Assembly: GCF_019024325.1 (NCBI RefSeq)
Contig: NZ_JAFNJS010000001.1
Location: 434,001-498,000, forward strand
Origin: Falsiroseomonas tokyonensis
GTDB lineage: Bacteria; Pseudomonadota; Alphaproteobacteria; Acetobacterales; Acetobacteraceae
DNA length: 64,000 nt
Direction of reading: 5' to 3'
The position numbers and the translations under genes were made by a program. A model generated the notes under the pieces. That model was given only the letters and a program-made list of their open reading frames with translations, was not told the origin of the DNA and searched no databases. The stretch's first letter is position 1; the number at the start of each line of letters is the position of its first letter. Shown piece by piece: positions 468-17,716 of this stretch.

Positions 468-1574
468 TCAATCGTCGGCGCCAGCCTTCATACGCCGCAC
501 GACGCCGGCGAGCGTCGAGCCCTGTACCAGAATGCTGAACACCGCCACCGCGTAGGTCGCGGCCAGCAGCGCAGGCTTTTCCGGGATGTCGGGCAGCGAG
601 AGCGCGAGCGCCACCGAGATCCCGCCGCGCAGCCCGCCCCAGGTCAGGATGGCGACGGTGCCAGGCGCGAAGGGCACGAAGCGGCTGAGCAGCGCAACCG
701 CGCCCCCGACCGCGGCGAAGCGCCCCGCCAGCGCCAGCGGCACTGCCGCCATGGCGAGAGCGGCGAAGGCTGAGTCGAAACGTAGCAGCAGCACCTCGAG
801 GCCGATGAGAAGGAACAGCACCGCGTTCAGCCCCTGGTCCACCACGTCCCAGAAGCCAAAGACGTAGCGTCGCGTTCTTTCGCTCATGCCGCGCCGCGCC
901 CTGCGGTTACCGAGCAGAATGCCGGCGACGACGACCGCTTCCCGCAGGAAGAGCTCGGCGGCCTCGGCGGGTCAAGCCTCGCCGCCCGCGGCAAGAATGA
1001 CGAGGAGCGCAAACAGCACGACCCCGACGCCATCGTTGAAGAGCGACTCACCAGACATGTCGGTCTCAATGGAAGCCGGCACCTGCACCACCTTCAGCGT
1101 GCCGAGCACCGCGACGGGATCGGTTCGGCTGATCAGCCCACCGAAGACCAGCGCCCAGGGCAGCGGCAACGGATAGCCAAGCGGCGCCGAAGCCATCCCG
1201 AGCCCTAGGCCGATCACGAAGGTGGACAGGAGTGTGCCGCCGGTCGCCATCAGCGCAACCGGCCAGGCGCGACCGCGCAGCCGGCTGATATCGAGGTGCA
1301 GCGCGCCGGCGAAGAGCAGGAAGGCGAGCAGCCCGTCGAGCACGGCACTCTGGAAATCGATCGCGCCAACAGCCGCGATCAGGCTGCGGTTCAGTGGTTC
1401 ATCCGTCTCCAACATGTCGACCACAACCAGCAGCAGCGAAGAGACGAGACCCATCGACAGCAGCCCAATTGAGCCCGGCAGACCAAGAAAGCGCTGGTTC
1501 AGCCAGCCGAAGCCCGCCGAAAGCACCAGCAGCAGCGCCACGATGTCGAGAAACGATAGCACGCCCGCCGTCAT
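468..1574 (-). pseudogene. CPA1/NhaP-type Na+/H+ antiporter, disrupted
   Basis: Two reading frames that belong to one antiporter lie in the same frame on the minus strand. The N-terminal part (1574-972, 200 codons) carries SRTDPVAVLGTLK and the ion-site motif GESLFNDGVGVVLF. A TGA at 974-972 ends it. Translation past the TGA continues in frame through PAEAAELFLREA and VVVAGILLGN into the C-terminal part (887-468), which has NAVLFLLIGLEVL and a GGLRGGIS segment. In intact relatives about 50 residues, including two membrane helices, normally lie between the LFLREA-like and VVVAGLLIGN-like blocks; here the blocks are fused. With both a nonsense codon and an internal deletion the gene is almost certainly dead. 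A separate short protein starting at 887 is conceivable but lacks the core. Confidence 0.85.
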
Positions 1575-2020: not shown

Positions 2021-2401
2021 TCAGTCATCCCATTCCGGCTGCGCTTCCAGCTGAGCCCGGCTCAGTAGGGTGACGATCCGGTCGCCCACCCGATGCACCT
2101 GGCTGAAGCGCAGCAGAACGTCGCGATCGCCGATGCCGAGGAATCCACCAACCTCCACGCCGAGGCCGGCCAGCAGCCCATCCTGCGTCACCAGCACCGC
2201 CTCGATCTCGCCGATCGCATCGCCCGTGTCGGTGTACAGCATGGCGCCGGCAATCTGTCCGGCCCGGAGGCCGAGGTCCGGCACCATCCGCCCTGCTTCG
2301 GCTTGCCCGTATTCCAGCTCCACCGCGGCCGCGGGCAGCGGTGCGGCGGCACCGGCCAGAAGCGCCACCAGCGCGGCGGCAATGAATCGTCCTGACGTCA
2401 T
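2021..2401 (-). CDS. Exported PRC-barrel domain protein
   Basis: The product is 126 residues with a cleavable signal peptide ending near AAA at about residue 26, then a single PRC-barrel fold. The barrel shows GDAIGEIEAVLV and the turn GGFLGIGDRDV, close to the GGFLGIGTRRA turn in the protein at 8853-9860. The start at 2401 is preceded by AGGAGGA at good distance, so a longer upstream frame is rejected. The gene is the last of a same-strand series that begins with the sensor kinase at 8579. PRC-barrels usually mediate binding or assembly; the partner here is unknown. Probably periplasmic. Confidence 0.8.
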   Translation of the reverse strand: MTSGRFIAAALVALLAGAAAPLPAAAVELEYGQAEAGRMVPDLGLRAGQIAGAMLYTDTGDAIGEIEAVLVTQDGLLAGLGVEVGGFLGIGDRDVLLRFSQVHRVGDRIVTLLSRAQLEAQPEWDD

Positions 2402-2570
2402 TCTGTCCTCCTGATCCTGGTCTGTCCTGCGGAAGCTGAGCGCCGGGAGTCCTTCGGCGCGTATCGGGGCAGGATCCGGTGCCACTGGGCGCCTCCAGCT
2501 GTGCGGCGGGTGCCGAGCCGATCGACGCCCGCGCCATCCGGGAGCGACGTCCCTTCGACCGGATTGTCCC

Positions 2571-3449
2571 CTAACGGGTGGAGGCGCCGGAGCCGGTGGT
2601 GCCGCTGCCCGAGGAGGTGCCCGACGAATTGCCGGAGGGCGTGTTCCCGGCCGCGCCCGATCCACCGCCGGAACCCGAGGTGTTACTGCTCGGCGATCCG
2701 GTCGAGGACCCGCTCGTCGAGGCGCTGGTCGAACCGCTGGCCGACCCGCCGGCCGAGGCGTTGCCCGATCCGCCACGCTCGTCGCCGGCGGTGCCGCCAG
2801 AATTGCTCCCCGAGTTGCCCCCGGAGTTGCCGCCCGAGCCCTGGCTGCCCGACGAGGACCCGCTGCTGCCGTCGCCGCGAAGCGCCTGCCGGGCCTGCTG
2901 CAGGGCCTGCCGTGCACCGCGGCGATCGCCCTGGTTCAGCGCCTCCTCGGCCTGCTCGATCGACATCTCGACCTGCTGGCGGCTGCGCATGGCGTTGTCC
3001 TGGCGCATCGCTTGGTCGGCCTGCTCCAGCGCCTGCTGCGCCGCCGCGGTATCGCCCTGCTGCAGGGCGCGCCGCGCCTCCCGCAGCGGCTCGCGCACGT
3101 CGCGCATCGCCTGCTGCATCCGCTCCCGCTCCACCAGCAGGATCAGCAGGCGGGTATCGCCCTCCGTGCCGCGGCTGGACGCCTGCGCGCCGCTGCCCAT
3201 CCGGTCGCCGCCCATCCGGCTTGAGGACGGGTCACGCCGACGTTCCTCCTCCCGGCCCATGCGATAGCCGGCCTCATAAGGGTCGTAGCGGTCGAGGATC
3301 GGGCCGGGCGAACGCTCCCGGCCCTGCGTCCACTGGTTGCTGCCCTGCGCGGCGGCCGGTGCCGCGGCGCCCATCGCCACCGCCAGCCCCAGCACCGGCA
3401 TGGCTGCCGCCATGCTGGCCGACATCGTCAAGGTCCGTTTCAGTTGCAT
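2571..3449 (-). CDS. Exported GYRxGREDER-family protein 1, Gly/Ser-rich tail
   Basis: This 292-residue protein has a signal peptide (cleavage near residue 35), the motif GYRMGREEER at 61-70, a long alanine/glutamine-rich helical region (about 100-190) made of TPR-like helices with the pattern ARRALQQGD and ARQALQQAR, and a C-terminal third of Gly, Ser, Thr and Asn repeats. The motif and overall layout are shared with the three genes upstream (4293, 5090 and 5658), so it is one of four tandem paralogues. No catalytic motif is visible. The helical part may form a coiled coil; the tail resembles flexible envelope linkers. I do not recognise the family. Confidence 0.75.
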   Translation of the reverse strand: MQLKRTLTMSASMAAAMPVLGLAVAMGAAAPAAAQGSNQWTQGRERSPGPILDRYDPYEAGYRMGREEERRRDPSSSRMGGDRMGSGAQASSRGTEGDTRLLILLVERERMQQAMRDVREPLREARRALQQGDTAAAQQALEQADQAMRQDNAMRSRQQVEMSIEQAEEALNQGDRRGARQALQQARQALRGDGSSGSSSGSQGSGGNSGGNSGSNSGGTAGDERGGSGNASAGGSASGSTSASTSGSSTGSPSSNTSGSGGGSGAAGNTPSGNSSGTSSGSGTTGSGASTR

Positions 3450-3482
3450 GTCTCTCTCCCGTCATCTGCCTCGTTGGCCGCT

Positions 3483-3517
3483 GGCCGGGACCGACCATCA
3501 TCGGGTCGGCCCCGGCC
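3483..3517 (-). terminator. Strong hairpin between exported-protein genes
   Basis: GGCCGGGACCGACC (3483-3496) and GGTCGGCCCCGGCC (3504-3517) pair over 13 of 14 positions around a 7-base loop. It lies in the 94-base gap between protein 2 and protein 1. No T-tract follows, so it could be a factor-dependent terminator, an mRNA stabiliser or an attenuating structure. Confidence 0.55.
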
Positions 3518-3543
3518 CTTACCGGTCTCAGTTGCTCCGGGTC

Positions 3544-4293
3544 TCAGTTGCTTCCGGTGTTCCAGTCGCGCGGCCGCAGGGGCTGGCCCTCGCCGCGCTG
3601 GCCGGCGCCCTCAAGCCGCCAGCCCGCGGTGTTGCGACCGACGATCTGGCCGCTCGATGCCAGTTCCATCGCCCGGGCGGTGCGCGACCGGGCGCGATCG
3701 ACCTCACGCTCCCGCAGCGCCTGGCGCGCCTCCCGGATCGCGCCGATGGCGGCGCCGGTGGCGGCCTCGCCGGAGCTTCCCTCGGGCAGGCTGCGCGTCA
3801 GCAGCCGGGTTTCCGCCTGGCCCAGCGCCACCCAAGCCTCGCGCAGATTGCCGCGGTTGATCTGCATGCGGGCATTGTCGAGGAACTCCATCGCGGCCCG
3901 CAGTTCGCGGTTGGAAGCCATGCCGGAGGAAAGCTGCCCGGCGTTGCGTTCATCCTCGCGCCCAGCGCGATAGCCGTAGTCATAGGCGTCGCGCGCGCCC
4001 TGCATGGTCCGGTCCTGGCTGGACTGGTCGCTGCCGAACAGGTTCCAGTCCGAAGAGCCGCGGCGGGTCTCGTTGCCCGACATCGGGTCGCGGCCGCGCC
4101 CAGCCCAGGGCTGCGTCAGCCGCTCATCCTCGCCGCGACGATAGAAGACCTCGCCGTCCGGCGTGGTCACCCAACGGCTGCGCTCGTCCCGGTTGACGCC
4201 CTGTGCCGAGGCGGGGGAGGGCGCCAAGGCGCCACCGCCCAGCAGGGCTGCGGCGAAGGTCAGGCTGATGGCCGCGTTGCGTGTGTTTCCCAT
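3544..4293 (-). CDS. Exported GYRxGREDER-family protein 2
   Basis: The product is 249 residues from the ATG at 4293, which has CAGGAGAAG in front and directly precedes a clear signal peptide (cleavage after Ala30, SPASA-Q). The mature part has GYRAGREDER at 107-116 and then a helical domain with AMEFLDNARMQINRGN and repeated ARQALRERE and ARSRTARAMEL heptad-like stretches. It shares the motif and export signal with its three neighbours but is more divergent in the helical part. It is probably periplasmic or surface-associated. No enzymatic residues are evident and the function is unknown. Confidence 0.75.
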   Translation of the reverse strand: MGNTRNAAISLTFAAALLGGGALAPSPASAQGVNRDERSRWVTTPDGEVFYRRGEDERLTQPWAGRGRDPMSGNETRRGSSDWNLFGSDQSSQDRTMQGARDAYDYGYRAGREDERNAGQLSSGMASNRELRAAMEFLDNARMQINRGNLREAWVALGQAETRLLTRSLPEGSSGEAATGAAIGAIREARQALREREVDRARSRTARAMELASSGQIVGRNTAGWRLEGAGQRGEGQPLRPRDWNTGSN

Positions 4294-4325
4294 GGGTCTT
4301 CTCCTGAATGTCTTGCGTGTGATCG

Positions 4326-4348
4326 GCATGCGCCCCTGCGGCGCATGC
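4326..4348 (-). repeat. Inverted repeat with partial direct copy downstream
   Basis: GCATGCGCC (4326-4334) and GGCGCATGC (4340-4348) form a perfect 9-bp stem with loop CCTGC. A second copy of GCATGCGCC starts at 4356 with a decayed right arm. Both lie in the 110-base gap between exported proteins 3 and 2, suggesting a duplicated RNA hairpin. Confidence 0.5.
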
Positions 4349-4403
4349 GCGGTTGGCATGCGCCCTGCGGTGCATGGGGTTCGGCTGAGAGTCTGGTCCT
4401 GAC

Positions 4404-5090
4404 TCAGCGCATGGCGGGCGGGATGCGCATCATCGCCTGCTGCGTCTCAAGCAGCGCGTCCTGCATCTCCGAGATCGCCCGGTCGCGGCGGTCGCCGGCG
4501 GGCTGCCGGGCCAGGTCCTGGATCGCCTCGCGCAGGCTTTGGGCGGCGACCAGCAGATGATCCATGGAGCGGGAGTAGTCCGGCACCACGGCGAACTGCT
4601 GGAACGGGGCGCTGTCCGGATAGACGTTCGGGATGACGTACATGCGTTCGCCACCCTGGCCCGATGCCTGGCCCGATCCCTGGCCCGATCCCTGCGAGGA
4701 CCGCCGGGACTGGTTCTGGCTGGACTGGTTCTGGCTGCCCTGGTCCTGGCCGCCCTGGCTGGACCGGGCCTCGCGCCGACGACGCTCCTCCTCCCGCCCG
4801 GCGCGGTAGCCCCGCAGGAACTGCTCCCGATCCGACTGCTGGGAATGAGACTGAGACTGAGACTGGCTCCCGCCACCGCCGTCCTGGCGCGAGGCGTGGT
4901 CGCGCATCAAGGCATCGTGCAGTTGGCGGAGATAGCGGTCATAGGCGCTGCCCGAGTTCTGGTTGCCCGCATTGCCGGGGCCGGCGTCGGACCCGTTCTG
5001 TGACTGGCTCTGCGCGAGAGCGGAGGCCGGTAGCGCGCCACCGGCAAAACCCATCGCGAGCAGGGCCGGGAAGATCAGGTTCTTTTTCAT
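4404..5090 (-). CDS. Exported GYRxGREDER-family protein 3
   Basis: This 228-residue protein has a signal peptide ending ASALA at residue 26, Ser/Gln-rich low-complexity segments (about 74-86 and 115-150), the motif GYRAGREEER at 94-103, and a C-terminal helical domain (about 172-228). That C-terminal domain aligns with the neighbouring protein at 5194-5658 over the pattern LRE-x4-L-x3-PAG-[DE]-RRD, followed by AL-x3-Q-x-AM and IP or LP, so the two are direct duplicates. The low-complexity blocks show repeated GQGS and SQNQS units. Function unknown; an envelope structural or stress role is only inferred. Confidence 0.75.
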   Translation of the reverse strand: MKKNLIFPALLAMGFAGGALPASALAQSQSQNGSDAGPGNAGNQNSGSAYDRYLRQLHDALMRDHASRQDGGGGSQSQSQSHSQQSDREQFLRGYRAGREEERRRREARSSQGGQDQGSQNQSSQNQSRRSSQGSGQGSGQASGQGGERMYVIPNVYPDSAPFQQFAVVPDYSRSMDHLLVAAQSLREAIQDLARQPAGDRRDRAISEMQDALLETQQAMMRIPPAMR

Positions 5091-5167
5091 CCTGGGTTTC
5101 CTTTGACTGTGAATTTCGCCCCCAGCCGGGTCCGGAAGGGGCGTTGGGCAACCGGTCAGCCCGGGCT

Positions 5168-5206
5168 TCAGCCCCGGAACTCAGCCCCGGAACTCAGCCC
5201 CGGGGG
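5168..5206. repeat. 13-bp tandem repeat, three units
   Basis: TCAGCCCCGGAAC occurs at 5168-5180 and 5181-5193, followed by TCAGCCCCGGGGG at 5194-5206. The last unit supplies the stop codon of the exported protein gene at 5194-5658, so the repeat spans the end of that gene and the gap to the next one. Confidence 0.7.
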
Positions 5207-5658
5207 CCGCCGGAGGCTCGCTCGCCCCATCCGTGCTCGAGCGGGATGCCGCGCTGGGCCCGGCGCTCCTCGCCCTCGCCACCACGCGGCAACCAGGTCA
5301 TGGCGTTCTGGGTGCGGATCAGCGCCTGGCGTGCCTGCTCCAGCGCGCTGTCGCGCCGCTCACCGGCGGGCAACTGCCGGAGCATCACCAGGACTTCCCG
5401 CAGGAGGATGCGGGCCCGATCCAGCCGTTCCATGGATTCGCGCTGCGAGGCGTCGTTCCACTGCGGACCGAAGCGCCGCTCATCGGCCACACCCGCGCGG
5501 AAGCCCGCGACGAAGGGCGTTTCGGAAACGCGGCCGGCATCACCACCGGCATGGCCACTGGCTGGGCCACCTTGGGCCACAGCGCCCGCCGCGCCGAACA
5601 TGGCGCCGGCCGCGAGTGCCAGGGCTGCGGCTTTTCTTGTCGGATAGAGAAGCTTCAT
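5194..5658 (-). CDS. Exported GYRxGREDER-family protein 4
   Basis: From the ATG at 5658 the product has 154 residues, with a signal peptide (AVA at 26-28), the variant motif GFRAGVADER at 52-61 and a helical domain at about 74-125 that closely matches the C-terminus of protein 3. A start nine bases upstream (5667) would add MWD; neither start has a strong ribosome binding site. It is the shortest and perhaps simplest form of the family: signal, motif, helical bundle. It follows the response regulator gene by 96 bases on the same strand, which suggests common control. Confidence 0.7.
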   Translation of the reverse strand: MKLLYPTRKAAALALAAGAMFGAAGAVAQGGPASGHAGGDAGRVSETPFVAGFRAGVADERRFGPQWNDASQRESMERLDRARILLREVLVMLRQLPAGERRDSALEQARQALIRTQNAMTWLPRGGEGEERRAQRGIPLEHGWGERASGGPRG

Positions 5659-5683
5659 GTCCCACATCCCGCCTGTTGCGCCG

Positions 5684-5710
5684 TGCCTGCTGGCGTCGAA
5701 GCAGCAGGCA
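5684..5710 (-). promoter_or_regulatory. Hairpin in the leader of exported protein 4
   Basis: TGCCTGCTG (5684-5692) and CAGCAGGCA (5702-5710) form a perfect 9-bp inverted repeat with a 9-base loop. It sits 26 bases upstream of the 5658 start and downstream of the response regulator gene. It could be an operator, a processing site or a terminator for the kinase-regulator transcript. Confidence 0.45.
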
Positions 5711-5754
5711 TGGAGGAGGTGGGGCGGCGGAACGCCTGAGGGGACTCCGGGTGG

Positions 5755-6381
5755 CTACGTAGGTTCGGCGGCCTCGGCGCCGCTGCCGGCCGCCAGCGCC
5801 ATGCGCACCGCCTCCGGCAGGCTGCGCACCTGCAGCTTGGCCATCAGGTTGGCGCGGTGGATTTCCACGGTGCGCGGGCTGATGCCGAGTTCGAGCGCGA
5901 TGACCTTGTTCTGCCGGCCCGCCACCATGCCCTGCAGCACCTCCGCCTCCCGCGGCGTCAGCGCCGCGATACGCTTCTGGGCATGCAATGCCGCCGTCGC
6001 CTCATCGCGCCGCGTCAGCGCGGCGGCGGCGGCGGCCAGCACGGCTTCACCGGTGAAGGGCTTCTGCAGCATGTCGCAGGCACCCGCCTTCATCATCCGC
6101 ACTGCCAGCGGCACGTCGCCATGCGCGGTGATGACCACGATCGGGTGCGGCAGGCCGCGCGCCAGCATCTCCCGCTGCACCGCCACGCCGTCGATGCCGG
6201 GCATGCGGACATCGAGCAGCACGCAGCCGAAGGGCAGGTCTGTCGTCGCCTGGCGGAGGAAGTCCTCGCCGCCCTCGAAGGTCTCCACCGCATATCCGGC
6301 GGATCCCAGCAGCAGCGCCAGCGAACGCCGCACTGCCGCCTCGTCGTCGACAATATAGCCTATGGCGATATCGGGGGGCAT
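5755..6381 (-). CDS. FixJ/NarL-type response regulator
   Basis: The 208-residue protein has a receiver domain (about 5-122) with acidic pocket residues Asp12/Asp13, phospho-acceptor Asp57 in CVLLDVRMPG, and Lys107 in LQKPF. A LuxR-type helix-turn-helix follows (about 143-200, LTPREAEVLQGMVAG then SPRTVEIHRANLMAKL). It overlaps the sensor kinase gene by 22 bases, so the two are translated together and very likely form a pair. Its likely targets are the adjacent exported-protein genes; that is inference from position. A receiver-only near copy lies at 10491-10913. Confidence 0.92.
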   Translation of the reverse strand: MPPDIAIGYIVDDEAAVRRSLALLLGSAGYAVETFEGGEDFLRQATTDLPFGCVLLDVRMPGIDGVAVQREMLARGLPHPIVVITAHGDVPLAVRMMKAGACDMLQKPFTGEAVLAAAAAALTRRDEATAALHAQKRIAALTPREAEVLQGMVAGRQNKVIALELGISPRTVEIHRANLMAKLQVRSLPEAVRMALAAGSGAEAAEPT

Positions 6382-8579
6382 GGCTTGGCCTCCTCCGGAG
6401 CAGGCGCTGCCGAGGCAGCACCGTCCGGTTCGAGCAGGGAGAGTGCGGGCAGGGAGAAGGTGAACACGGCTCCGCCCTGCGGGTTCGGTGCCCAGGCGAG
6501 ACGTCCTCCGTGCTCCTCGACGATGGCACGGCAGATGGACAGACCGACGCCCATGCCCTCGCGCTTGGTGGTGACGAAGGGCTCGAACAGGCGGCGCCCC
6601 ACCTCCTCCGGCAGACCGCCGCCGGTGTCGGCGATGGCGACGGCGCAGAAGCCCGCATCCTCGCGCCGTACCTCGACCCGAAGATCCCGGCGCGGGCTGT
6701 CCTCCATGGCCTCGATCGCGTTGCGCACCAGGTTGACCACCACCTGGCGGATCTGCACGGGGTCGGCCAGTACCGGAAGGGCCCGCGGCGAAACCTCCAG
6801 GCTCAGGGTCACGCCGCGCTGCCGTGCGCCACTGAGCGCCAGGCCGACCCCGTCCTGCACCAATCCGTTCAGGTCGACGATTCCGCGCTCGCCATCGGCG
6901 CCACCGATGAAGTCGCGCAGCCGCCGCACGATCGTGCCGGCATGCACGGCCTGGTCCGCCGCCTCCCGCATCGCATCGCGCGCCATGGCGGAGCGGCTTG
7001 GACCGGGCTCGCGCCGCTCCAGCATGTTCAGCGCCGCCTCGGTGAAGTTGGCCACGGCGGTCAGCGGCTGGCTGAGCTCATGTGCCAGCGCCGCGGCCAG
7101 GGCGCCCATGTCGTTCAGCCGCGCCATGTGCCGAAGCTCGGCCTGGGTATCACGCAGCCGTGCCTCCGCCTGGCGCAGCGCGGTGACATCGGTGCAGGCC
7201 TTCACCATCGCGAGCAGGCGGCCATCCGGGCCCAGGCGCGGCGACCAGTGGCTGGCAACCAGGATGGGCGTGCCGTCGCGGCGCCATTGGCGGATCTCGC
7301 CCTGCCAGGCGCCGTCCCGCCGCAGGCACTCGCGGATCGCAGCCAGCGGCTCCGGGAACTCGCTGCGCAGCAGGTCGTTCGCCACCTGGCCAATGGCCTC
7401 CTCCGCGCTCCAGCCGAGCAGCCGCTGCATGCCCGTCGTCCAGACCAGGATGCGTCCATCCGGTCCCACCACCTTTACCTGCGCCAGGTCGAGCGCGGCC
7501 AGAACCTCCTCCCGCTCGCGCAGCCTTTCCGCTGCCTCGTGCCGCGCCAGCAACAGCGCGCGGCCCACCTCATTCACCTCGCGCACCGCGGAATGCGGCG
7601 TGGCGCCGGCATCCGAGGGCGGCAGCTGGGAGGCCGCGGCCAGCGCCTGGATCGGCCGGGCGATGCGCCGGGTGAAGACCAGCGCCAGGGCCGCGGCAAG
7701 CGCGGCAAAGACCAGGGCACTGCCGGCGGCGATCCACAACTGGCGCCGCAGCGGTGCGGCGAAGGCCGTCTCCGGCATGAAGACCCAGGCGGTCCAGCCG
7801 GAGACCCGGGCCTCGGCATGCGCCACCACCACGGGCACGCCGAAGGCGTCCTGCGCGCGCCGCCAGCCCTCGCCGATGGGCGGCCCCTCCTCCGCGCCGA
7901 CGCGGCGCAGGCCGACGAGGCGTGACGCGCCTTCGCTCCGCGCCAACACGGTCCCGTCGCGATCGGTGATGGTGGCGATCACGCCCGCCGGCAGTCGCGC
8001 ATCGCGCAGGATGGCGTCGAGCTCGCTGACCGGGACGCGCAGGCTGAGCAGCCTGGGCCGGTCGGTCGGCGGTCCCGGAACCGGCGCCATCACCGCGAAT
8101 CCGGGTGCCCCCGCGTCCAGCCCGAGAAGGCCGCTGACCTGGGGCCGCAGCGTTTCCAGCGCCGCACGCTCGGCAATCGCATCATGGGCGCCGAGGGCGG
8201 CCGAGCCGAGCGTCAGCAACTGATGCGTCTCGCCTTCCTGCAGCACCAGGACGGCGTCCCGCGCCCGCGGCAATTGCCGGACGCGCTCCCGGAAGGCCTC
8301 GACGTCGCCGGAGATCAGGTGGTCCGAGGTGGCCAGCACCTCGACCATCGCCTGCAAGGTGGTGAGGCCGCGGTCCAGCGAGACCGCGATGTGGTGCGCT
8401 GCGTCGCGCGCCGCGTCCCGATGGCGCGCCCGCTCCGTTTCCGCGACGCGGACCAGCAGATAGACCTCCAGCGCCAGCATTGGCAGCAGCAGCGCGGCGC
8501 ACAGCAGGCCGAGGTGCCAGGCCAGCGGTCGCCCGGCGGGACCGGCTTCCACGGCCCGGTTCGTTCCGGCAGGTTCCAT
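6360..8579 (-). CDS. Membrane sensor histidine kinase (Cache-HAMP-PAS)
   Basis: The 739-residue protein has a first membrane helix at about 19-45, a large periplasmic sensor region (Cache-like, about 46-280), a second helix at about 281-303, a HAMP-like linker, one PAS domain (about 365-485) and a kinase core. His500 in ALAHELSQPLTA is the phosphorylated residue of a HisKA domain. The ATPase domain shows NLVRNAIEAM, DTGGGLP and GMGVGLSICRAIVEEHGG. The kinase core resembles the FixL/DctB group, but there is no evidence that the PAS domain binds haem. Because the sensor region faces the periplasm, it likely reports on the envelope or on an extracellular ligand. It overlaps its partner regulator by 22 bases. 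Confidence 0.92.
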   Translation of the reverse strand: MEPAGTNRAVEAGPAGRPLAWHLGLLCAALLLPMLALEVYLLVRVAETERARHRDAARDAAHHIAVSLDRGLTTLQAMVEVLATSDHLISGDVEAFRERVRQLPRARDAVLVLQEGETHQLLTLGSAALGAHDAIAERAALETLRPQVSGLLGLDAGAPGFAVMAPVPGPPTDRPRLLSLRVPVSELDAILRDARLPAGVIATITDRDGTVLARSEGASRLVGLRRVGAEEGPPIGEGWRRAQDAFGVPVVVAHAEARVSGWTAWVFMPETAFAAPLRRQLWIAAGSALVFAALAAALALVFTRRIARPIQALAAASQLPPSDAGATPHSAVREVNEVGRALLLARHEAAERLREREEVLAALDLAQVKVVGPDGRILVWTTGMQRLLGWSAEEAIGQVANDLLRSEFPEPLAAIRECLRRDGAWQGEIRQWRRDGTPILVASHWSPRLGPDGRLLAMVKACTDVTALRQAEARLRDTQAELRHMARLNDMGALAAALAHELSQPLTAVANFTEAALNMLERREPGPSRSAMARDAMREAADQAVHAGTIVRRLRDFIGGADGERGIVDLNGLVQDGVGLALSGARQRGVTLSLEVSPRALPVLADPVQIRQVVVNLVRNAIEAMEDSPRRDLRVEVRREDAGFCAVAIADTGGGLPEEVGRRLFEPFVTTKREGMGVGLSICRAIVEEHGGRLAWAPNPQGGAVFTFSLPALSLLEPDGAASAAPAPEEAKPCPPISP

Positions 8580-8852
8580 GGCTGCTTGTCGTTTCCTGTA
8601 GCGCGCAGCGGACAGAACCGGCGAGCGGGAGTGCGGTTCCCGGGCTTCATGCGGGAAGCCCCTAGGTAGCGGCCCTTAGATGCGGGCGCGCAAACGAAGG
8701 CCAAATTGCCGAACGAGGAGCGACGCCGGCCGCCACGCTTGGTTTGGCACGCCAGGTCCTGGCCCGGATACGAGGCCGCAACCCTGATGTCACCATGGTG
8801 CATCGAACCAGCCTGCCGCGCCGCTTCCACGAGGAAGGAAGGACACATCATC

Positions 8853-9860
8853 ATGCAAGAGCATCCGACGCACACAGCACAGCACCCGGCGCTTCGTGCA
8901 TCCTTGCTCACCACCGCTGCCGTCGTGGCGCTCGGCATCTCCGGCACCGCCGTGGCGCAGCAGCAGCAGGCGCAGCAAAACCAGGCCCAGCAGGGCAATA
9001 TCCAGACGCCATCGGGGAACCCCCTCGCGCCGCAGCTGCAGGCGGTGGAGCGTTCGCTGCGCCAGTCCCAGCAGCAGCTTTCGCAGCAGGGCGCCGATGC
9101 GCCGCAGCCGAACTGGGAACAGGCGCGTCGTGCGGTCAGCGCCGGCCAGGAAGCGCTCGGCCGCACCCCGTCGGAGCTGCAGGGGCAGGATGCCTTCGAC
9201 GCCGCGCGGACCCGCCTTTCCGATGCACGGGTTGCGCTCCAGGGCAGCAGCCCCGATCGCCAGCGTGCGGCGATGCAGCTGCGCGAGGCGGCCGATGCGA
9301 TGGCCGCGCTGCACGGCCGCCTGACCTCCGCTGAGAGTTCGGGGTCGCAGGGGGGGACCTCCAACTCCGGCCGCAGGCAGACCGCCGTGCAGCAGGCGCA
9401 GCCGCAGGTGAATGGGCAGCGCCCGGACCAGGCGCGGAGCGAGACGGCGCAGCGCGACCAGCGGACCGGCGCGACCACGGCCACCCCCGCGCCAGCGCAG
9501 TCGGGTGGTGCCCGGAGCGCCGCCGTATCGCCAGCGGCCGGCGTGCCGTTGCAGCGGGTCTCGAACCTGATCGGCACCAATGTCGTCGGCGCCAACGGGC
9601 GTGAGTCCGGCGAGGTGGAGAACCTGCTGCTCGACCGCCAGGGCAATGTCCGCGCCGCGCTGGTCGAATGGGGCGGCTTCCTCGGCATCGGCACGCGCCG
9701 TGCGATGGTGCCGATGGAGCGCATCGAACTGGGCAGCCAGCCGGCCCGCCTGAACATGACGCGCGAGGAGCTGGAGGCGCTGCCGCGCTACGACGAAGCC
9801 AATATCGCCGCCTATGGCCGCGAGCGCGGCTGGGGCGAGGGGATCCGCATGGCACGTTGA
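8853..9860 (+). CDS. Exported protein, helical region plus C-terminal PRC-barrel
   Basis: The start at 8853 is preceded by AGGAAGGA and begins a long signal peptide ending AVAQ near residue 36. The 335-residue product has a Gln-rich stretch, a helical region (about 60-155) with regularly spaced alanines, a low-complexity linker, and a PRC-barrel at about 235-315 with GESGEVENLLLD-like and GGFLGIGTRRA segments. The barrel resembles the one at 2021-2401. It is divergent from the sensor kinase (273-base shared upstream region), which suggests common regulation. Probably periplasmic; function unknown. Confidence 0.75.
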   Translation: MQEHPTHTAQHPALRASLLTTAAVVALGISGTAVAQQQQAQQNQAQQGNIQTPSGNPLAPQLQAVERSLRQSQQQLSQQGADAPQPNWEQARRAVSAGQEALGRTPSELQGQDAFDAARTRLSDARVALQGSSPDRQRAAMQLREAADAMAALHGRLTSAESSGSQGGTSNSGRRQTAVQQAQPQVNGQRPDQARSETAQRDQRTGATTATPAPAQSGGARSAAVSPAAGVPLQRVSNLIGTNVVGANGRESGEVENLLLDRQGNVRAALVEWGGFLGIGTRRAMVPMERIELGSQPARLNMTREELEALPRYDEANIAAYGRERGWGEGIRMAR

Positions 9861-9989
9861 ACCGGCCATGCGGCGGGCGGCGGCACGGCGCCGCTGCCCG
9901 ACCACGCGCGGGCTCGGCCGGCGCGGCCAGGACGTGCGGACGCAACACGCCGGTGCGCCCGCGCCGGCGACAACATCAGGAGAGACCTC

Positions 9990-10397
9990 ATGAACGCCAG
10001 GATCCTCGCCACCGCCTTGATCGGCCTCGCGCTGAGCGCGCCCGCCTTTGCCCAGGGCCAGAGCCAGAACCCGCAGAACCGTTCGGGCAGCGGGGCCTCC
10101 TCCAGTCAGGGTTCCTCCGGCTCGGCGCAGAGCCAGCAGCAGGCGGTGAGCCAGCAGCGGCTTCGCCAGCAGCTGACGCAGGCGGGATTCCAGGATGTGC
10201 GGATCATCGACGCCGCCTACCTTGTCGAGGCCAAGACGCAGGACGGCAACTCGGTTTTCCTGATGATCAACCCGCCCGCCTCGATGCCCTCCGCCAGCGC
10301 CACGCAGCCTGGCAGCGGCGCCAGCAGCAGCGGCTCCAGCGGCGGCAGCAGCCCGTCTTCCAGCGGCGGAAGCAGCAGCAGCGGCTCCCGCAACTGA
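9990..10397 (+). CDS. Small exported Ser/Gly-rich protein
   Basis: The 135-residue product has a signal peptide ending APAFAQ near residue 22, a Gln/Ser-rich segment, a short ordered core (about 53-95) with RLRQQLTQAGFQDVRIIDA and VEAKTQDGNSVFLMINP, and a Ser/Gly tail. The core looks like a small alpha/beta module of the kind often annotated as PepSY-like or hypothetical in related bacteria. A good AGGAGAG ribosome binding site precedes the ATG. It lies 129 bases after the PRC-barrel gene and ends at a strong hairpin terminator, so the two may share a transcript. Confidence 0.7.
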   Translation: MNARILATALIGLALSAPAFAQGQSQNPQNRSGSGASSSQGSSGSAQSQQQAVSQQRLRQQLTQAGFQDVRIIDAAYLVEAKTQDGNSVFLMINPPASMPSASATQPGSGASSSGSSGGSSPSSSGGSSSSGSRN

Positions 10398-10412
10398 AGC
10401 AGGTGGTCAGGA

Positions 10413-10436
10413 AGGGGGCGGCGCGAGCCGCCCCCT
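10413..10436 (+). terminator. Hairpin terminator with GCGA tetraloop
   Basis: AGGGGGCGGC (10413-10422) pairs perfectly with GCCGCCCCCT (10427-10436) around the loop GCGA. It lies 16 bases after the stop of the small exported protein. Only a short TGTTC follows, so it is GC-rich and without a clear T-tract. Confidence 0.7.
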
Positions 10437-10490
10437 GTTCGCATCATGCTGTCCCTGCGCACCTTCCCACTTCCAGCATTGGCGTAGCCG

Positions 10491-10913
10491 ATGCGCGCGG
10501 GTGAGGCGACGAACCGGTCGGGATGCGGCGGTGCCGCCTGCTACGTCGTGGACGACGACGCGGCGGTGCGCCGTTCGGTCGCGCTGCTGCTCGGCTCCGC
10601 CGGCTACAGGGTCGAAACCTTCGAGCACGGCGACGCCTTCCTGGACTTCGCCGACCAGGAGCTGCCCTTCGGCTGCGTGATCCTTGATGTCCACATGCCC
10701 GGCAGCGACGGCGCGACCGTTCAGCGGGAGCTGGTGGCGCGGGGACTGCCGCATCCCATCGTGGTCATCACCGGGCATGGCGACGTGTCGCTCGCGGTGC
10801 AGATGGTACGGGCGGGGGCGCGCAGCGTCCTGCAGAAGCCCTTCAGCGGCAACGCCTTGCTGCGGGCGACGCAGGAGGCCATGACCCTACGGGACGACAG
10901 CGGGCGTCACTGA
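10491..10913 (+). CDS. Receiver-only response regulator, near copy of the FixJ-type regulator
   Basis: This 140-residue protein is a lone receiver domain with Asp21-Asp22, phospho-acceptor Asp66 (CVILDVHMPG) and Lys116 (LQKPF). It matches the receiver at 5755-6381 almost residue for residue in several blocks, such as LPFGCV, ARGLPHPIVVIT and LLLGSAGY, but stops before any DNA-binding domain. It therefore looks like a duplicated and truncated copy that keeps phosphorylation chemistry, able to act as a phosphate sink or competitor for the kinase at 6360-8579. The upstream region has no clear Shine-Dalgarno sequence, and a stop codon lies just before the ATG in frame. Confidence 0.85.
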   Translation: MRAGEATNRSGCGGAACYVVDDDAAVRRSVALLLGSAGYRVETFEHGDAFLDFADQELPFGCVILDVHMPGSDGATVQRELVARGLPHPIVVITGHGDVSLAVQMVRAGARSVLQKPFSGNALLRATQEAMTLRDDSGRH

Positions 10914-11192
10914 GCCGGCCGGGTGCGCGTCTGCGCGGCATGCGAAGACGCCCGAGGCTCCAGGCAGCCGGACCACGCTGCGAAGCGTGCCTCGACGTCC
11001 GTACGACCACCTAGACCACGTCGGCAACCTCACCTTGGTCCCGCGACGGCGTTACCTTCATCGGCGTACAGGGGGAAGCACAGAAGGACGCGGCCCGGTT
11101 CGAACCTGGCTGCACCCGGATGAGCCGCCCTCCTTCGCCTTCGATCGCGATACAGCGCCGAGCAGCGAAACGACTTTACGAGGAAGCTGGCC
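10914..11192. other. Intergenic region before exported protein gene
   Basis: About 280 bases between the orphan receiver and the next exported-protein gene contain no open frame with protein-like features. It presumably holds the promoter of the gene at 11193; no consensus elements were convincing. Confidence 0.4.
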
Positions 11193-11726
11193 ATGAAAGT
11201 GCACCAGGAAGGCCACCCGGCCGTCACGTCCCGCCGATCGCACCTGCAATTCGTCTCCTTGCCGCTCACCCTGGCCTGCTGGCTAGCGGCTGGTCCGGCT
11301 GCCGCGCAGTGGCGCACCGGGAAGGTGGCGGAGCCAGCGCCGGTCCTGGAGTCGCGCCGCGGCAAGCTGGCCGGCTATGCCGCGATGCTCGACGCTGCCG
11401 CGGAGCGTCTGCACGCCTCCATGATGGCGCTCGTGGCCTACGGCACCCGGGATCCGCAGCGCGGATCCGTGCCGCCGCAGCAGCAGGCACTGGTCGACCA
11501 GGCGCAGCGGGCCTGGCTGGTGGTGAAGAACACGCCGGAGGATTTCGCCCTTAACGACATCTACACCGCCGTGGACCGGCAGTTCGCTGAATCGGTCGGG
11601 CGGATGCAGCGTGCCGCGACCGCACCTTCCGAGGCCGTGGCGGAAGCCCGCAGCATCCTCACGGCCATGGAGCGGCTGGAAGATGCCGCGGCCGCTGCGG
11701 CGATGGCGGCCGGCCCCGCGCCGTGA
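11193..11726 (+). CDS. Exported helical protein of unknown function
   Basis: The product has 177 residues with an extended N-terminus, a hydrophobic export signal (about 22-38, ending PAAAQ) and an alpha-helical mature part rich in Ala, Arg and Gln, with segments such as LVDQAQRAWLVVKNTPEDF and ARSILTAMERLED. A GAGGAAGC ribosome binding site precedes the ATG. It lacks the GYRxGREDER motif but resembles the other exported proteins of the island in size, export and helical content. It is the last gene before the convergent tamB gene. No function is recognised. Confidence 0.65.
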   Translation: MKVHQEGHPAVTSRRSHLQFVSLPLTLACWLAAGPAAAQWRTGKVAEPAPVLESRRGKLAGYAAMLDAAAERLHASMMALVAYGTRDPQRGSVPPQQQALVDQAQRAWLVVKNTPEDFALNDIYTAVDRQFAESVGRMQRAATAPSEAVAEARSILTAMERLEDAAAAAAMAAGPAP

Positions 11727-11796: not shown

Positions 11797-14700
11797 TCAG
11801 TATTCGAATTCGTAAGTGAGGCCGAGGCGGTCGCCGGCCGGGCCGGTGGCGGTCTCGCCCTCCAGCTTCAGGCGCGGCGTGATCTCGACCTCCACCCCGA
11901 CGCCGGTCTGTCCGCTCTGGACGCCCTGGCGAAGCCCGAGATAGACGCCCGGCGCGACATAGCGCCCGGCTTCGGCGGTCGGCCCGGCGCCCGTCCCCTC
12001 CACGGCACCATCGCCGGCGACACCGAGCCGGTCGAGGCCGAGCGCGCCCCGCAGGCGGTCCAGCGCCTGGCTGCCGCCACCAACGCCGGTGAGCTGCGCG
12101 ATCGCCTCGGCGATCTGCAGGACCTCGAAGGGCGAGAGGCGGTCGGTGGATCGGTCGAACAGCAGCCGCGCCAGGATCTCGTCCTGCGGCAGTTCCGGCG
12201 AGGAGCTGAAGGTGATCTCCGGCGCCGCCGGCGTGCCCTGCACCGCGATGGTGATGCTGGTGCCGCCGGCCTCGCTGCGCGCCACCAGATCCAGCCGCGG
12301 GGTCAGGGTGCCGCCGGCGAAGTCGATGCGGCCGCGGTCGAAGGTCAGGCGGCGGGCCAGCACCTGGAGCGTGCCGCGGCGCAGCTCGAAGCCACCCTGC
12401 GGAACAGGGTCGGGCAGCGTGCCGCCGATGCGCAGCTCGCCACCCAGCTCGGCATCGACGCCCCGGCCGCGCACGAAGATCCGCCCGGGCGCGGAGATCG
12501 CGACATCGAGGCGGATGGCCGGCAGGCCTTGCGGCGTCGGCAGGCTGGCCTCGGCCGGCTGCGCCGCGGGCGGCAGGATGGCGCCGGGGGGCGGCCTGCC
12601 ACGCACCTGCACGCCGTCCAGCACGGGCAGGCTGGCGGGCAGGCTGCGGGGGATGCGGATCTCGGCGCGCTGGATGCGGACCTGGCCGGCCAGCAGCGCG
12701 TCGGCCAGCAGCGGCCCGTCGAGGCGCAGCTCGGCATCGACGACCGCGGTGATGAGGTCGGATACCGCCGGCCGCGCATCTCGGGCGGTAAGCCGCAGCT
12801 CGGCCGGCAGCCCGGCCGCGCCGAGATCCACCGCGCCCTGCAGCGCGATGCTGCCGCCCCCGGCCGTGCGCCCCCGCAGGCGCTGCACCACCAGGCGCGT
12901 GCCCGCGCCCACCACGCTTCCGGCGATGTCGCTGATCCGGATGCCATAGACGGGGTTGCGGTACTCGCCGCCGGACAGTGTCGCCCGCCCGCCCAGCCTG
13001 GGCTCGGCGAGCGTGCCCTCGGCCCGCAGCGCCAGTTGCAGCTGCCCGGTCACCCGGTCCGCGCCGGCGGCCAGGAAGGGGCCGGCCAGCGGCTGCAGGG
13101 CCAGGTTACCGTCCAGGCTGGCCTGCAGCGGGGCGGCCGGGCCGAAGCCCTGCGGCAAGGTCGCGGCCAGCGTCAGCCGCCCGGCCCTTCCGGCCTCGAT
13201 CTCCGCCCGCAGCCTTGCGGCGCCGGCGGCCCAGCGCGCCTCCGCCCGCAGGCCGAGCGCGGGCAGGCCCTGGGACCAGCTTGCACCCGGTCGCAGGCCG
13301 CTTCCGCGCAGCGTCGCCTCCACCACCGGCTCGGCCACGGGCCCGGTCACCCGGACGGTGCCGGACAGGCTGCCCTCCGGCGACAGCTCCGGCAGGAAGG
13401 GGCCGGTCAGGGCGGCGGGGATCGAGGACAGCGTGGCGCTCAGGTCGGCCCGCTGCGGACCCCAGCGGCCCGCAAGCTGCACGCGCCCGCCGTGCGGGAC
13501 GGTGAGGCCCAGGGGCGATGCCAGCCGGAGGCCGCCATCGGCGCCCAGCACGATCTGCGCCGGTGCCGCCAGGCCGATGGCCTGGCCCAGCGCCTCGGCC
13601 CGCAAGGCTGCCAGGTTCAACCGCCAGCCCTGTTCCACCGCCAGCAGCCGTCCATTGGCGGAGACGGCGCCCTGTTCGGCCTCCGCCTGCACCGACCAGG
13701 CCATCGCCTGCGGCGTCCCCTCCACCGTCGCCGCGATCCGACCCGCGCTGCCCGCATAGGCCAGGCGCGGGGCGTCCAGCCGCAGGTCGAAGCCCTGCAC
13801 GCCGTCCCGCGGCGCGAAGCTTCCCTGCGCCTGCAACCGCCCTTCCAGCCCGGCGAGCCCGGCGAGCCGCGCCAGTGGCGCCAATGCGCCGGCCTCCAGC
13901 CGCGCCGAGCCGTCGAACAGCAGCGCATCCGGGTCGATCAGCCCGGTCGCGGTCAGCACCGCGGGCCCAAGGCTGAGGCGGGCCTGGTCCAGTTGCAGCA
14001 GCGCCCCCTGCGGCTGGCCGCGCAGCGCCAGCTCCAGCGGCAGGCCCTCCAGCGTCGCCTGCAGCTGGGCCTGTGCACGCGGGGCGGTGGTCGGGTTCTC
14101 GATGCGGGCCTCCAGACCCAGCCCCTCCAGCACCCGCCCGGCGAGGGTGATGCGGTCGGAACTGGCGTTGAGGGTGATGGTCGGATCGGCCAGGGTGCCG
14201 CCGAGCCGCGCCACCGCCTCCAGCGCGCCGCTCGAAGCCGGGCCGAGGACCTCCAGCCGCGGCAGGCTGAGCCGCGCCGTGGCATCCAGCGGCGCCGCCA
14301 GCGATCCCGCCACGCCGAGCCGGCCGGCGGCGCCCTGCACCACCAGATCCACCCGGCGCGGTGCGGGTGCCGCCGTGCCGGACAGGGTCGGGCTGTCGCC
14401 GAGCACGGCATCCGCCTGTGCGATGCCGGTGGCGAGGCCCTGCGGGGTTGCCTCCAGCCGCAGCTGCGGGGCGGCGAAGGTGCCGGTGACGCGCATCTCG
14501 CCGCGCAGGGAATCCCAGGCCAGGCCCGGCGGCAGAAGCGCGCGAAGCGGTGCGGAATCCCCCAGGGCCAGTTGCAGCGTGAGCTCCGGAACCTCCTGCG
14601 CCAGGTCCAGCGTGCCGGCGGCACTGGCCTGCCCCACCGGGGTCTCGACTTGTAGCTGCGTGAGGGTCAGCAGGCCCTCGGCCGGCCGGTCCGCGTCCAG

Positions 14701-15609
14701 CGTGAAGCGAAGGGGGAAGAAGGCGCCCGCATCGGGCACCGGCAATAGCGGCGCCGCCTGCAGCTGGCCGCGAAGCTGCGCGCCGAAGGCCCCATCAGCC
14801 AGCGCGCGGATGGTGCCCTCGGCTTCCAGCGCGATGTCGGGACCGAGCCGCGCCGCCGCCGTCAGCGCCGCGCCGGCGGCCGGGCCATCCAGGCTCAGCG
14901 TCAGCGACAGGGGATGCTGCGGCAGCCCGAGAAGGCTGGGCACCAGGCCACCTTCCGGCTCCTGCACCGCAAGCTGCGCGTTCAGCCGGTCCTCGCCGGG
15001 GGCCAGGGACAGGTCGAGGGTGATGCTGCCTTCCCGGTCCAGCCGGCGCAGCGCCAGGTCGGCGGCCAGGCGTCCGGATTGCAGCGCGGCACTGCCGGTC
15101 AGGGAGAAGGCGGCGGCCTGGCCGAGCACCGCAGGATCGAGTTCCAGCCGCTGCACGACCAGGCGGTCCAGCGCCAGGTCCACCGGAAGGTCGGGCAGAC
15201 CCGGCAGCACGCCGCCCTGCCCTGGCGCCGGCTGTTCCCCCGCTTGGGTGGGGATGGCCGCGGGCGCCGCAACGGGCAGCCGGTCCACGCGCAGCAGCGC
15301 CGCCTCCAGCGCCTCCAGCCGCACCACGCCGCGCAGCAGCGCGGTGCGCGCGAGGTTGAGCCGGACATCCCGCAGGGTGAGCCAGACGCCCAGCTGGTCG
15401 GACAGGGTGATGCGGTCCGCCGTGGGGGCGCCGCGCAGCGCGCCTTCCAGCCCCTCCACGCGCAGGCCCGGGATCAGCGCTTCCAGACGCCGCTCCAGGA
15501 AGGACGGATCGCGCGCCGCATCGTCCTGCGCCGTCACCTTGCCGCCCGGCAGCAGCATGGCCGCCAGGAACAGGACGAGGAGGATACGGGGCAGTCGCCA
15601 GCGCTGCAT
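11797..15609 (-). CDS. tamB: TamB-family inner-membrane/periplasmic bridge protein
   Basis: The 1270-residue product begins with an N-terminal signal anchor (about 5-28) followed by a very long repetitive beta-rich region, the hydrophobic groove typical of AsmA/TamB proteins. The C-terminal third matches the DUF490 (TamB) domain and ends in the aromatic sequence GLTYEFEY. TamB partners with TamA to help insert outer-membrane proteins and is implicated in moving phospholipids to the outer membrane. Only three bases separate it from the tamA stop, so the genes are co-transcribed. Length agrees with family members (about 1250-1450). Confidence 0.93.
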   Translation of the reverse strand: MQRWRLPRILLVLFLAAMLLPGGKVTAQDDAARDPSFLERRLEALIPGLRVEGLEGALRGAPTADRITLSDQLGVWLTLRDVRLNLARTALLRGVVRLEALEAALLRVDRLPVAAPAAIPTQAGEQPAPGQGGVLPGLPDLPVDLALDRLVVQRLELDPAVLGQAAAFSLTGSAALQSGRLAADLALRRLDREGSITLDLSLAPGEDRLNAQLAVQEPEGGLVPSLLGLPQHPLSLTLSLDGPAAGAALTAAARLGPDIALEAEGTIRALADGAFGAQLRGQLQAAPLLPVPDAGAFFPLRFTLDADRPAEGLLTLTQLQVETPVGQASAAGTLDLAQEVPELTLQLALGDSAPLRALLPPGLAWDSLRGEMRVTGTFAAPQLRLEATPQGLATGIAQADAVLGDSPTLSGTAAPAPRRVDLVVQGAAGRLGVAGSLAAPLDATARLSLPRLEVLGPASSGALEAVARLGGTLADPTITLNASSDRITLAGRVLEGLGLEARIENPTTAPRAQAQLQATLEGLPLELALRGQPQGALLQLDQARLSLGPAVLTATGLIDPDALLFDGSARLEAGALAPLARLAGLAGLEGRLQAQGSFAPRDGVQGFDLRLDAPRLAYAGSAGRIAATVEGTPQAMAWSVQAEAEQGAVSANGRLLAVEQGWRLNLAALRAEALGQAIGLAAPAQIVLGADGGLRLASPLGLTVPHGGRVQLAGRWGPQRADLSATLSSIPAALTGPFLPELSPEGSLSGTVRVTGPVAEPVVEATLRGSGLRPGASWSQGLPALGLRAEARWAAGAARLRAEIEAGRAGRLTLAATLPQGFGPAAPLQASLDGNLALQPLAGPFLAAGADRVTGQLQLALRAEGTLAEPRLGGRATLSGGEYRNPVYGIRISDIAGSVVGAGTRLVVQRLRGRTAGGGSIALQGAVDLGAAGLPAELRLTARDARPAVSDLITAVVDAELRLDGPLLADALLAGQVRIQRAEIRIPRSLPASLPVLDGVQVRGRPPPGAILPPAAQPAEASLPTPQGLPAIRLDVAISAPGRIFVRGRGVDAELGGELRIGGTLPDPVPQGGFELRRGTLQVLARRLTFDRGRIDFAGGTLTPRLDLVARSEAGGTSITIAVQGTPAAPEITFSSSPELPQDEILARLLFDRSTDRLSPFEVLQIAEAIAQLTGVGGGSQALDRLRGALGLDRLGVAGDGAVEGTGAGPTAEAGRYVAPGVYLGLRQGVQSGQTGVGVEVEITPRLKLEGETATGPAGDRLGLTYEFEY

Positions 15610-17559: not shown

Positions 17560-17716
17560 ATGATCGCAAAGCCGGGCGCAGGCCGCGGTTCCGCATCGAG
17601 GCGAAACCTCGTAGCGCTACGTAGTTCGCGCTCGGTGAACTCCGCGAAGAACGATTTGCCGCGCGCGCACCGTGGTCATGGGCGGAGACCCACGGGCCGG
17701 TTGGCATGCGGCGCGG

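Follow-up and report, generated by a model that had tools for sequence, protein, structure and literature searches.

Probable control of an envelope regulon of exported proteins by a FixJ-type two-component system in Falsiroseomonas tokyonensis

In Falsiroseomonas tokyonensis (Acetobacterales, Roseomonadaceae in the NCBI taxonomy), a membrane sensor histidine kinase (HK) and a FixJ-type response regulator (RR) are encoded among genes for exported proteins, and the question raised by this locus is whether the two-component system governs these genes or only stands beside them. The window, i.e., the whole 64-kb stretch of DNA that was analysed, covers positions 434001-498000 of contig C1 of a GC-rich genome (G000). 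The preliminary description of this DNA had taken eleven genes for one envelope-response module: HK and RR, four exported proteins (E1 to E4) and a small PRC-barrel protein on one strand, and PRC_D, S, a receiver-only protein (REC) and H on the other. The comparative evidence makes a good case for a FixJ-type envelope regulon: the FixL/FixJ-class system is probably the switch of a set of exported proteins, and the regulon likely reaches past the eleven genes, to an extra tamA-tamB operon (17559-11797).

Each of the eleven genes was recovered as an open frame in its place, and most of what had been said of them singly was borne out. Both signalling genes carry Pfam domains above the cut-off, the exported PRC-barrel proteins were recovered on both strands with Pfam PRC above the cut-off, and the small exported protein S has a domain left unnamed earlier, Pfam PepSY_2. 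Gene starts are approximate, as the calls come from a simple codon-position model, and the export signals of E1 to E4, the small PRC protein, PRC_D, S and H were judged by eye from the N-termini. RR is of the FixJ type in that it joins a receiver to a LuxR/GerE domain and has FixJ as its best NCBIfam match, with 227.9 bits, below the equivalog cut-off of 255. The PAS and kinase part of HK matches the NCBIfam FixL model over residues 369-712 with 260 bits, below the cut-off of 850; for its N-terminal part (window 7700-8579), a search of solved structures by sequence gave nothing at E ≤ 1. No haem ligand was recognised by eye in the PAS domain on comparison with FixL. Among the matches listed, the HK relative of F. 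selenitidurans is 63% identical, and that of genome G009 (L032) comes in two pieces of 48 and 52% identity, with residues 357-466 omitted and one stop; the G009 kinase, whose PAS part is omitted from the alignment, is possibly shortened or broken.

One line of evidence is a predicted operator, CTASGTAG, defined from the sites before E1/E2 of Falsiroseomonas selenitidurans BU-1 (G007), F. bella CQN31 (G008) and Roseomonas sp. AR75 (G006) together with the window site at HK. In the window it occurs at three distinct places, between HK and PRC_D, before E1 and before tamA, giving five strand-counted matches against 0.27 expected, and none of 100 shuffles was as high. The whole genome of 6.16 Mb has 15 distinct sites, and the reversed control pattern gave 324 strand-counted matches. 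Of the other 12 sites, one precedes a FixK-like gene and another a DUF1194-like gene for an exported protein. A third falls at the start of a small exported gene, a fourth lies about 220 bp upstream of an hflX-like gene, and the remaining ones lie in coding sequence or are unclear. The names FixK, LexA, HflX, DUF1194, universal-stress, DUF421, CtaG, oxidase, dehydrogenase, efflux, IS transposase and 2-isopropylmalate synthase are used here as read from the sequences, with no family search.

The related kinase/regulator promoters (350 bp), which were held out from the definition, have the exact site in three of six cases (F. selenitidurans, F. bella and genome G190), for which the chance is about 3e-9; this figure used 21 sites for G009, where the distinct count is 18, and is thus slightly conservative. 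The five distinct sites of F. selenitidurans lie at E1, at HK, at an OmpA-family gene (Pfam OmpA) that is followed by an efflux-type gene, near a universal-stress-like gene and within coding sequence. Two of the ten sites of F. bella are found at E1/E2 and one between RR and PRC_D, AR75 has one of its nine at E1/E2, and G190 has one of its four before HK. As a control, two genomes with no regulator at E ≤ 1e-40, G001 and G002, were inspected at their best PRC_D-like locus, and neither has a site there. Two motif matches before lexA-like genes (AR75, F. bella) read GAAC-N7-GAAC; as this fits the SOS box consensus, they probably are SOS boxes and were left out of account.

Seven genomes contributed 62 core sites that were read (all sites of G000, AR75, F. 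selenitidurans, F. bella, G190 and G194, and 10 of the 18 of G009, perfect palindromes). Seven of these 62 have an extended 17-bp form of the operator, CTASGTAGNNRCNCGGA, every one pointing at its gene. Its places are E1 in G000, F. selenitidurans, AR75 and F. bella, E2 and PRC_D in F. bella, and the OmpA-family gene in F. selenitidurans. Because six of these places served to define the form, its presence there is by construction, and what is new is the seventh place (PRC_D of F. bella) and its absence at the other 55 core sites. The E1 and OmpA-family promoters of F. selenitidurans, which belong to unrelated genes, have CTAGGTAGCCGCCCGGAGT in common. According to PMC4999443, the FixJ consensus obtained by SELEX is GTAMGTAG, and the R. 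palustris fixK promoter bound by FixJ contains GTACGTAG, as given in PMC13327599. The core here, TASGTAG, resembles both; CTASGTAG differs from the FixJ consensus at the first base and by S in place of M.

The third window site stands before a pair of genes of the TAM type, in which a TamA with Omp85 and POTRA domains adjoins TamB. This island TamA is about 52% identical to the other TamA of the genome (contig C56), and the latter is 84% identical to that of G002. Of the 16 tamA loci that a search of 15 genomes returned, solely the island copy has the operator core (none of the 15 others).

The presence of the genes across genomes points in the same direction. Of the 15 genomes of the genus, 5 have the regulator (E ≤ 1e-40) and 4 match the E2 profile, all within those five (p 0.0037 if the genomes are independent, i.e., with kinship ignored). 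The DNA pattern of the G[YF]RxGRxDER box of the E proteins occurs in the same four genomes (three places in G000, five in AR75, one in F. selenitidurans and five in F. bella), and a control pattern gave one match over all 15. On the tamA tree, neither the genomes with the regulator nor those with E2 are one clade; four and three changes are needed, respectively, two changes being forced by well-supported branches, and neither character is more clustered than under shuffled labels, which gave values as low in 236 and 141 of 500 cases. Among the matches listed for a 200-genome sample of the family, E2 was found in five genomes, each of which also has the regulator at E ≤ 1e-40 (as do 73 of the 200 overall), with the caveat that G118 and G190 match E2 by the hairpin only and have no site at that locus.

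Taken together, these results suggest the following mechanism. HK would sense an envelope or respiratory cue and phosphorylate RR, as their domains indicate. By analogy with the published FixJ site, RR would then bind CTASGTAG, and at some targets CTASGTAGNNRCNCGGA, about 60-185 bp before the start codon, acting on its own kinase/PRC_D promoter, on an E1-E2-E3-E4-PRC operon and on the extra TamA/TamB pair. The output would most likely be envelope protection or repair, because the targets are exported helical/PRC-barrel proteins and TAM proteins, to which one relative adds an OmpA-family protein; this is the weakest step of the scheme. A respiratory cue is possible since oxidase-, dehydrogenase- and CtaG-like genes lie within 30 kb to the left in G000, similar to the CtaG-, cytochrome c- and oxidase-subunit-like genes that follow directly after the regulator in F. 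bella and AR75.

Several observations weigh against this interpretation. Since E1 and HK are where the motif was first noticed, the sites there are not independent. In G194 (nine sites) and G009 (18), the 20 kb fetched on either side of and including the kinase/regulator contain no site, and the AR75 kinase/regulator promoter has only GTAGGTAG, not the exact site. In the window scan S, REC and H had no exact site of their own, nor has the PRC_D-like locus of F. selenitidurans, a genome with the regulator, and about 20 kb of sequence at each of the E2-like loci of G190, G118, Ramlibacter and Xanthobacteraceae is free of sites. Of the 15 sites in G000, no more than about half precede fitting genes, homologues of PRC_D are also present without the regulator, and fold searches of the PDB with the E3 and E4 models gave nothing at E ≤ 0.001.

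It is also conceivable, if unlikely, that the sites belong to another FixJ-type circuit, perhaps an oxygen-type FixJ/FixK one, and that HK and RR are merely near its targets. On contig C4 of G000, CTACGTAG lies before the FixK-like gene (L079:5159-5166) with a FixL-like kinase adjoining, and this locus is possibly a canonical FixLJ/FixK system that uses the same operator class. Together with the other FixJ-type regulators of the genome (C4:29307, C1:613146 and C1:1251759) it means that a paralogue could use the sites, and F. selenitidurans, too, has two more full-length FixJ-type matches; in F. bella and AR75, however, the RR orthologue is the only match to the FixJ model at E ≤ 1e-25 and the E1/E2 sites are kept, and the presence of E2 tracks RR in the genus.

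In F. selenitidurans the genes are split between contig C55, with the run of E1-E2-E3-E4, and contig C66, with the kinase/regulator, and in F. bella and AR75 the E1, E2, E4 and PRC genes stand beside a 2-isopropylmalate-synthase-like gene, with the regulator on another contig. Inheritance as one 10-kb block was rejected on this ground. The preliminary description had held that homologues usually far from any two-component system would speak against a module, and this is literally the case in the three other genomes of the genus with the E cluster; the operator and the co-occurrence restore the link of this cluster to the regulator. The module thus survives as a regulatory link, with the operator, the joint presence in the genus and the neighbours in G194 on its side, but not as an inherited block. 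A mixed-origin island, in which the exported genes and the two-component system came together by chance without common regulation, would agree with the separate contigs and with the IS-transposase-, oxidase- and dehydrogenase-like genes also found in the island, but appears improbable to us given that a rare operator is common to unlinked loci, that the genes are jointly present in the genus and that G194, which belongs to a different genus, has S, PRC_D and one more PRC gene divergent to its kinase/regulator pair. The regulator is likewise divergent to PRC_D in F. bella and AR75.

Membership in the alphaproteobacterial general stress (EcfG) regulon in place of a FixJ-type one is very unlikely. 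With the EcfG promoter consensus, a GGAAC-N16-GGTT match ends about 36 bp upstream of the HK start codon and a loose match occurs in two (G000, AR75) of four kinase/regulator promoters scanned. However, the window has 2 matches to the strict pattern where 0.65 would be expected and 3 to the looser one where 1.24 would be, which is close to chance (10 of 100 shuffles as high for each), both strict matches fall within the coding sequences of E2 and HK, and such promoters were rejected.

The two genomes in which RR has no FixJ-type paralogue at that threshold also differ in the regulator itself. In F. bella (L135) and AR75 (L194) the phosphorylation site is changed from Asp to Asn, AR75 is also without the conserved Thr, and no kinase gene adjoins the regulator. 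Another kinase gene of F. bella, about 5 kb away, is paired with its own OmpR-like regulator, and the matches to the window kinase listed for both genomes span the PAS-kinase part only. The regulator thus seems to have kept its targets after losing the neighbouring sensor and the phosphate-accepting residue, and the switch seems to be independent of phosphorylation there. The R. palustris FixJ variant D53A still binds nif promoters, as stated in PMC13327599, which is a precedent for binding without phosphorylation. Alternatively, a distant kinase may act on another residue than the lost Asp. The lineage would offer a before-and-after pair for a two-component regulator that survives the loss of kinase and phosphorylation site with its targets kept.

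In the window, the receiver exists twice. The receiver-only copy of the regulator that had been described is indeed one: REC and the RR receiver are 69% identical in amino acids and 75% in nucleotides over 116 codons. The dN/dS of 0.41 indicates that REC seems to be kept under some constraint, and the D, T and K of phosphorylation are retained. In the other 14 genomes of the genus no receiver-only match was listed at E ≤ 1e-40, and no remnant of the helix-turn-helix was seen by eye in three frames downstream of REC. The likeliest role of REC is that of a phosphate sink or kinase damper, which would draw off phosphate or damp the kinase by binding.

The exported proteins themselves are less uniform than had been assumed. 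Their description as four paralogues holds for E1 and E2, which have a C-terminal helical hairpin in common (54 columns, hhalign E 1.3e-14, 41% identity) besides the box, but not for E3 and E4, which in profile comparison match the other E proteins only across the box of about 20 residues; between E2 and E3 the signal region matches too. These comparisons cover five of the six pairs, E1/E3 being left out. E1 to E3 are over no Pfam or NCBIfam cut-off. E4 exceeds the gathering score of Pfam YfdX (28.1 bits, gathering score 26.6), with a best stretch of 35 residues and hence weakly, and is also just above the cut-off of Pfam SbsC-spectrin-like; the YfdX cut-off was not reached by E3 (13.4 bits), and E1 and E2 have no listed match to it. 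The predicted models are of low overall confidence (mean pLDDT 53 for E4 and 60 for E3), the helical parts being better, and the fold search with E3 returned mainly a weak likeness to MIT three-helix domains, none at E ≤ 0.001. Ramlibacter aurantiacus and a Xanthobacteraceae genome encode proteins with two E2 hairpins in tandem, and in G190 (L137) the hairpin and a PRC barrel are parts of a single protein, a link between the hairpin proteins and the PRC proteins. H has LprI as its best Pfam match, below the cut-off, and its helical nature is an impression only.

From these data, a wider picture can be drawn tentatively, with rather less confidence than the regulon itself: a FixJ-class regulator may have been recruited for a regulon of box proteins and a spare TAM, becoming a phosphorylation-independent one-component regulator in one lineage, and the box may be a new targeting or assembly signal common to exported proteins that differ in their domains. 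If true, the FixJ operator class would reach beyond oxygen and nitrogen genes and include those of exported envelope proteins. The locus would give the first regulatory context for E1 to E3 and a pointer to a second, possibly conditional TAM system.

Table 1. Genes and predicted operators of the two-component locus and the adjoining TAM operon (window positions)
Feature	Position	Strand	Basis
Small PRC-barrel protein, exported by eye	2021..2401	-	Pfam PRC 1.4e-09
E4, exported by eye	2571..3449	-	box + helical part + Ser/Gly-rich tail
E3, exported by eye	3544..4293	-	box + helical part unlike E1/E2 hairpin
E2, exported by eye	4404..5090	-	box + C-terminal hairpin as in E1
E1, exported by eye	5194..5667	-	box + C-terminal helical hairpin
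Predicted operator CTACGTAGCCACCCGGA before E1	5746..5762	-	core overlaps RR stop codon
RR, FixJ-type response regulator (receiver + LuxR-type helix-turn-helix)	5755..6381	-	Pfam Response_reg + GerE above cut-off
HK, membrane sensor histidine kinase	6360..8579	-	Pfam PAS/HisKA/HATPase_c above cut-off; extracytoplasmic region by inspection
Predicted operator core CTAGGTAG, between HK and PRC_D	8662..8669	+	motif match
PRC_D, exported by eye, C-terminal PRC barrel	8853..9860	+	Pfam PRC 1.5e-08
S, small PepSY_2 protein, exported by eye	9990..10397	+	Pfam PepSY_2 24.9 bits vs cut-off 24.3
REC-only protein, duplicate of RR receiver	10491..10913	+	Pfam Response_reg alone
H, exported by eye, family not assigned	11193..11726	+	open frame
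tamB of extra TAM copy	11797..15609	-	Pfam TamB 3.2e-58
tamA of extra TAM copy (second, diverged in genome)	15613..17559	-	Pfam Omp85 + POTRA
Predicted operator core CTACGTAG, 58 bp upstream of tamA frame	17617..17624	-	motif match

Further genes of this kind lie about 20 kb to the left of the window. A region of G000 (L059:7300-10099) has a second exported-looking set near an IS-transposase-like gene; besides PRC-like proteins, it encodes one small protein that carries a GYQQGRMDERR box and another with a hairpin like that of E1. Next to it (L059:10309-10700), fragments of H and of both ends of tamB stand side by side, 82-95% identical to the window; these are probably the remains of a duplicated H-tamB segment. 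A Na+/H+ antiporter gene (window 468-1574, minus strand) has one in-frame stop at 972-974, with Pfam Na_H_Exchanger over its first part. Antiporter-like and DUF421-like genes are also found near the E2-hairpin gene of the Xanthobacteraceae genome (L220).

In the open-licence literature of PMC, no paper was found that joins PRC-barrel, Roseomonas and response regulator, and one names PRC-barrel, two-component, periplasmic and FixJ together. The locus is best compared with four known systems. The closest are FixL/FixJ of rhizobia, Rhodopseudomonas and Caulobacter, as RR is FixJ-like over its full length and the PAS-kinase part of HK is FixL-like. Unlike FixL, HK has an extracytoplasmic region by inspection and scores far under the FixL cut-off, and unlike FixL/FixJ loci there is no FixK-like gene among the window genes beside HK and RR, the predicted targets here being exported proteins. 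EvgS/EvgA with YfdX of E. coli offers a second parallel: in PMC4941729, E. coli YfdX is described as co-expressed with EvgA, and a YfdX protein as predicted to be periplasmic and chaperone-like in activity in vitro. E4 is just over the Pfam cut-off of this family, whereas E1 to E3 are under it and the kinase and regulator are FixL/FixJ-like. REC recalls FixT, a receiver-only feedback inhibitor of FixL whose Caulobacter form binds an Fe-S cluster through a 4-Cys motif (PMC7078487), in that it is a receiver-only protein coded beside a FixL/FixJ-type system. Unlike FixT, REC has three cysteines, keeps Asp, Thr and Lys and copies the RR receiver, and FixT is an analogue of REC rather than a match. 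Finally, the window genes pass the Omp85, POTRA and TamB models and agree in this with the TamA/TamB module, while, unlike the usual TamA/TamB of the genus, the island copy is extra, diverged and preceded by the operator core.

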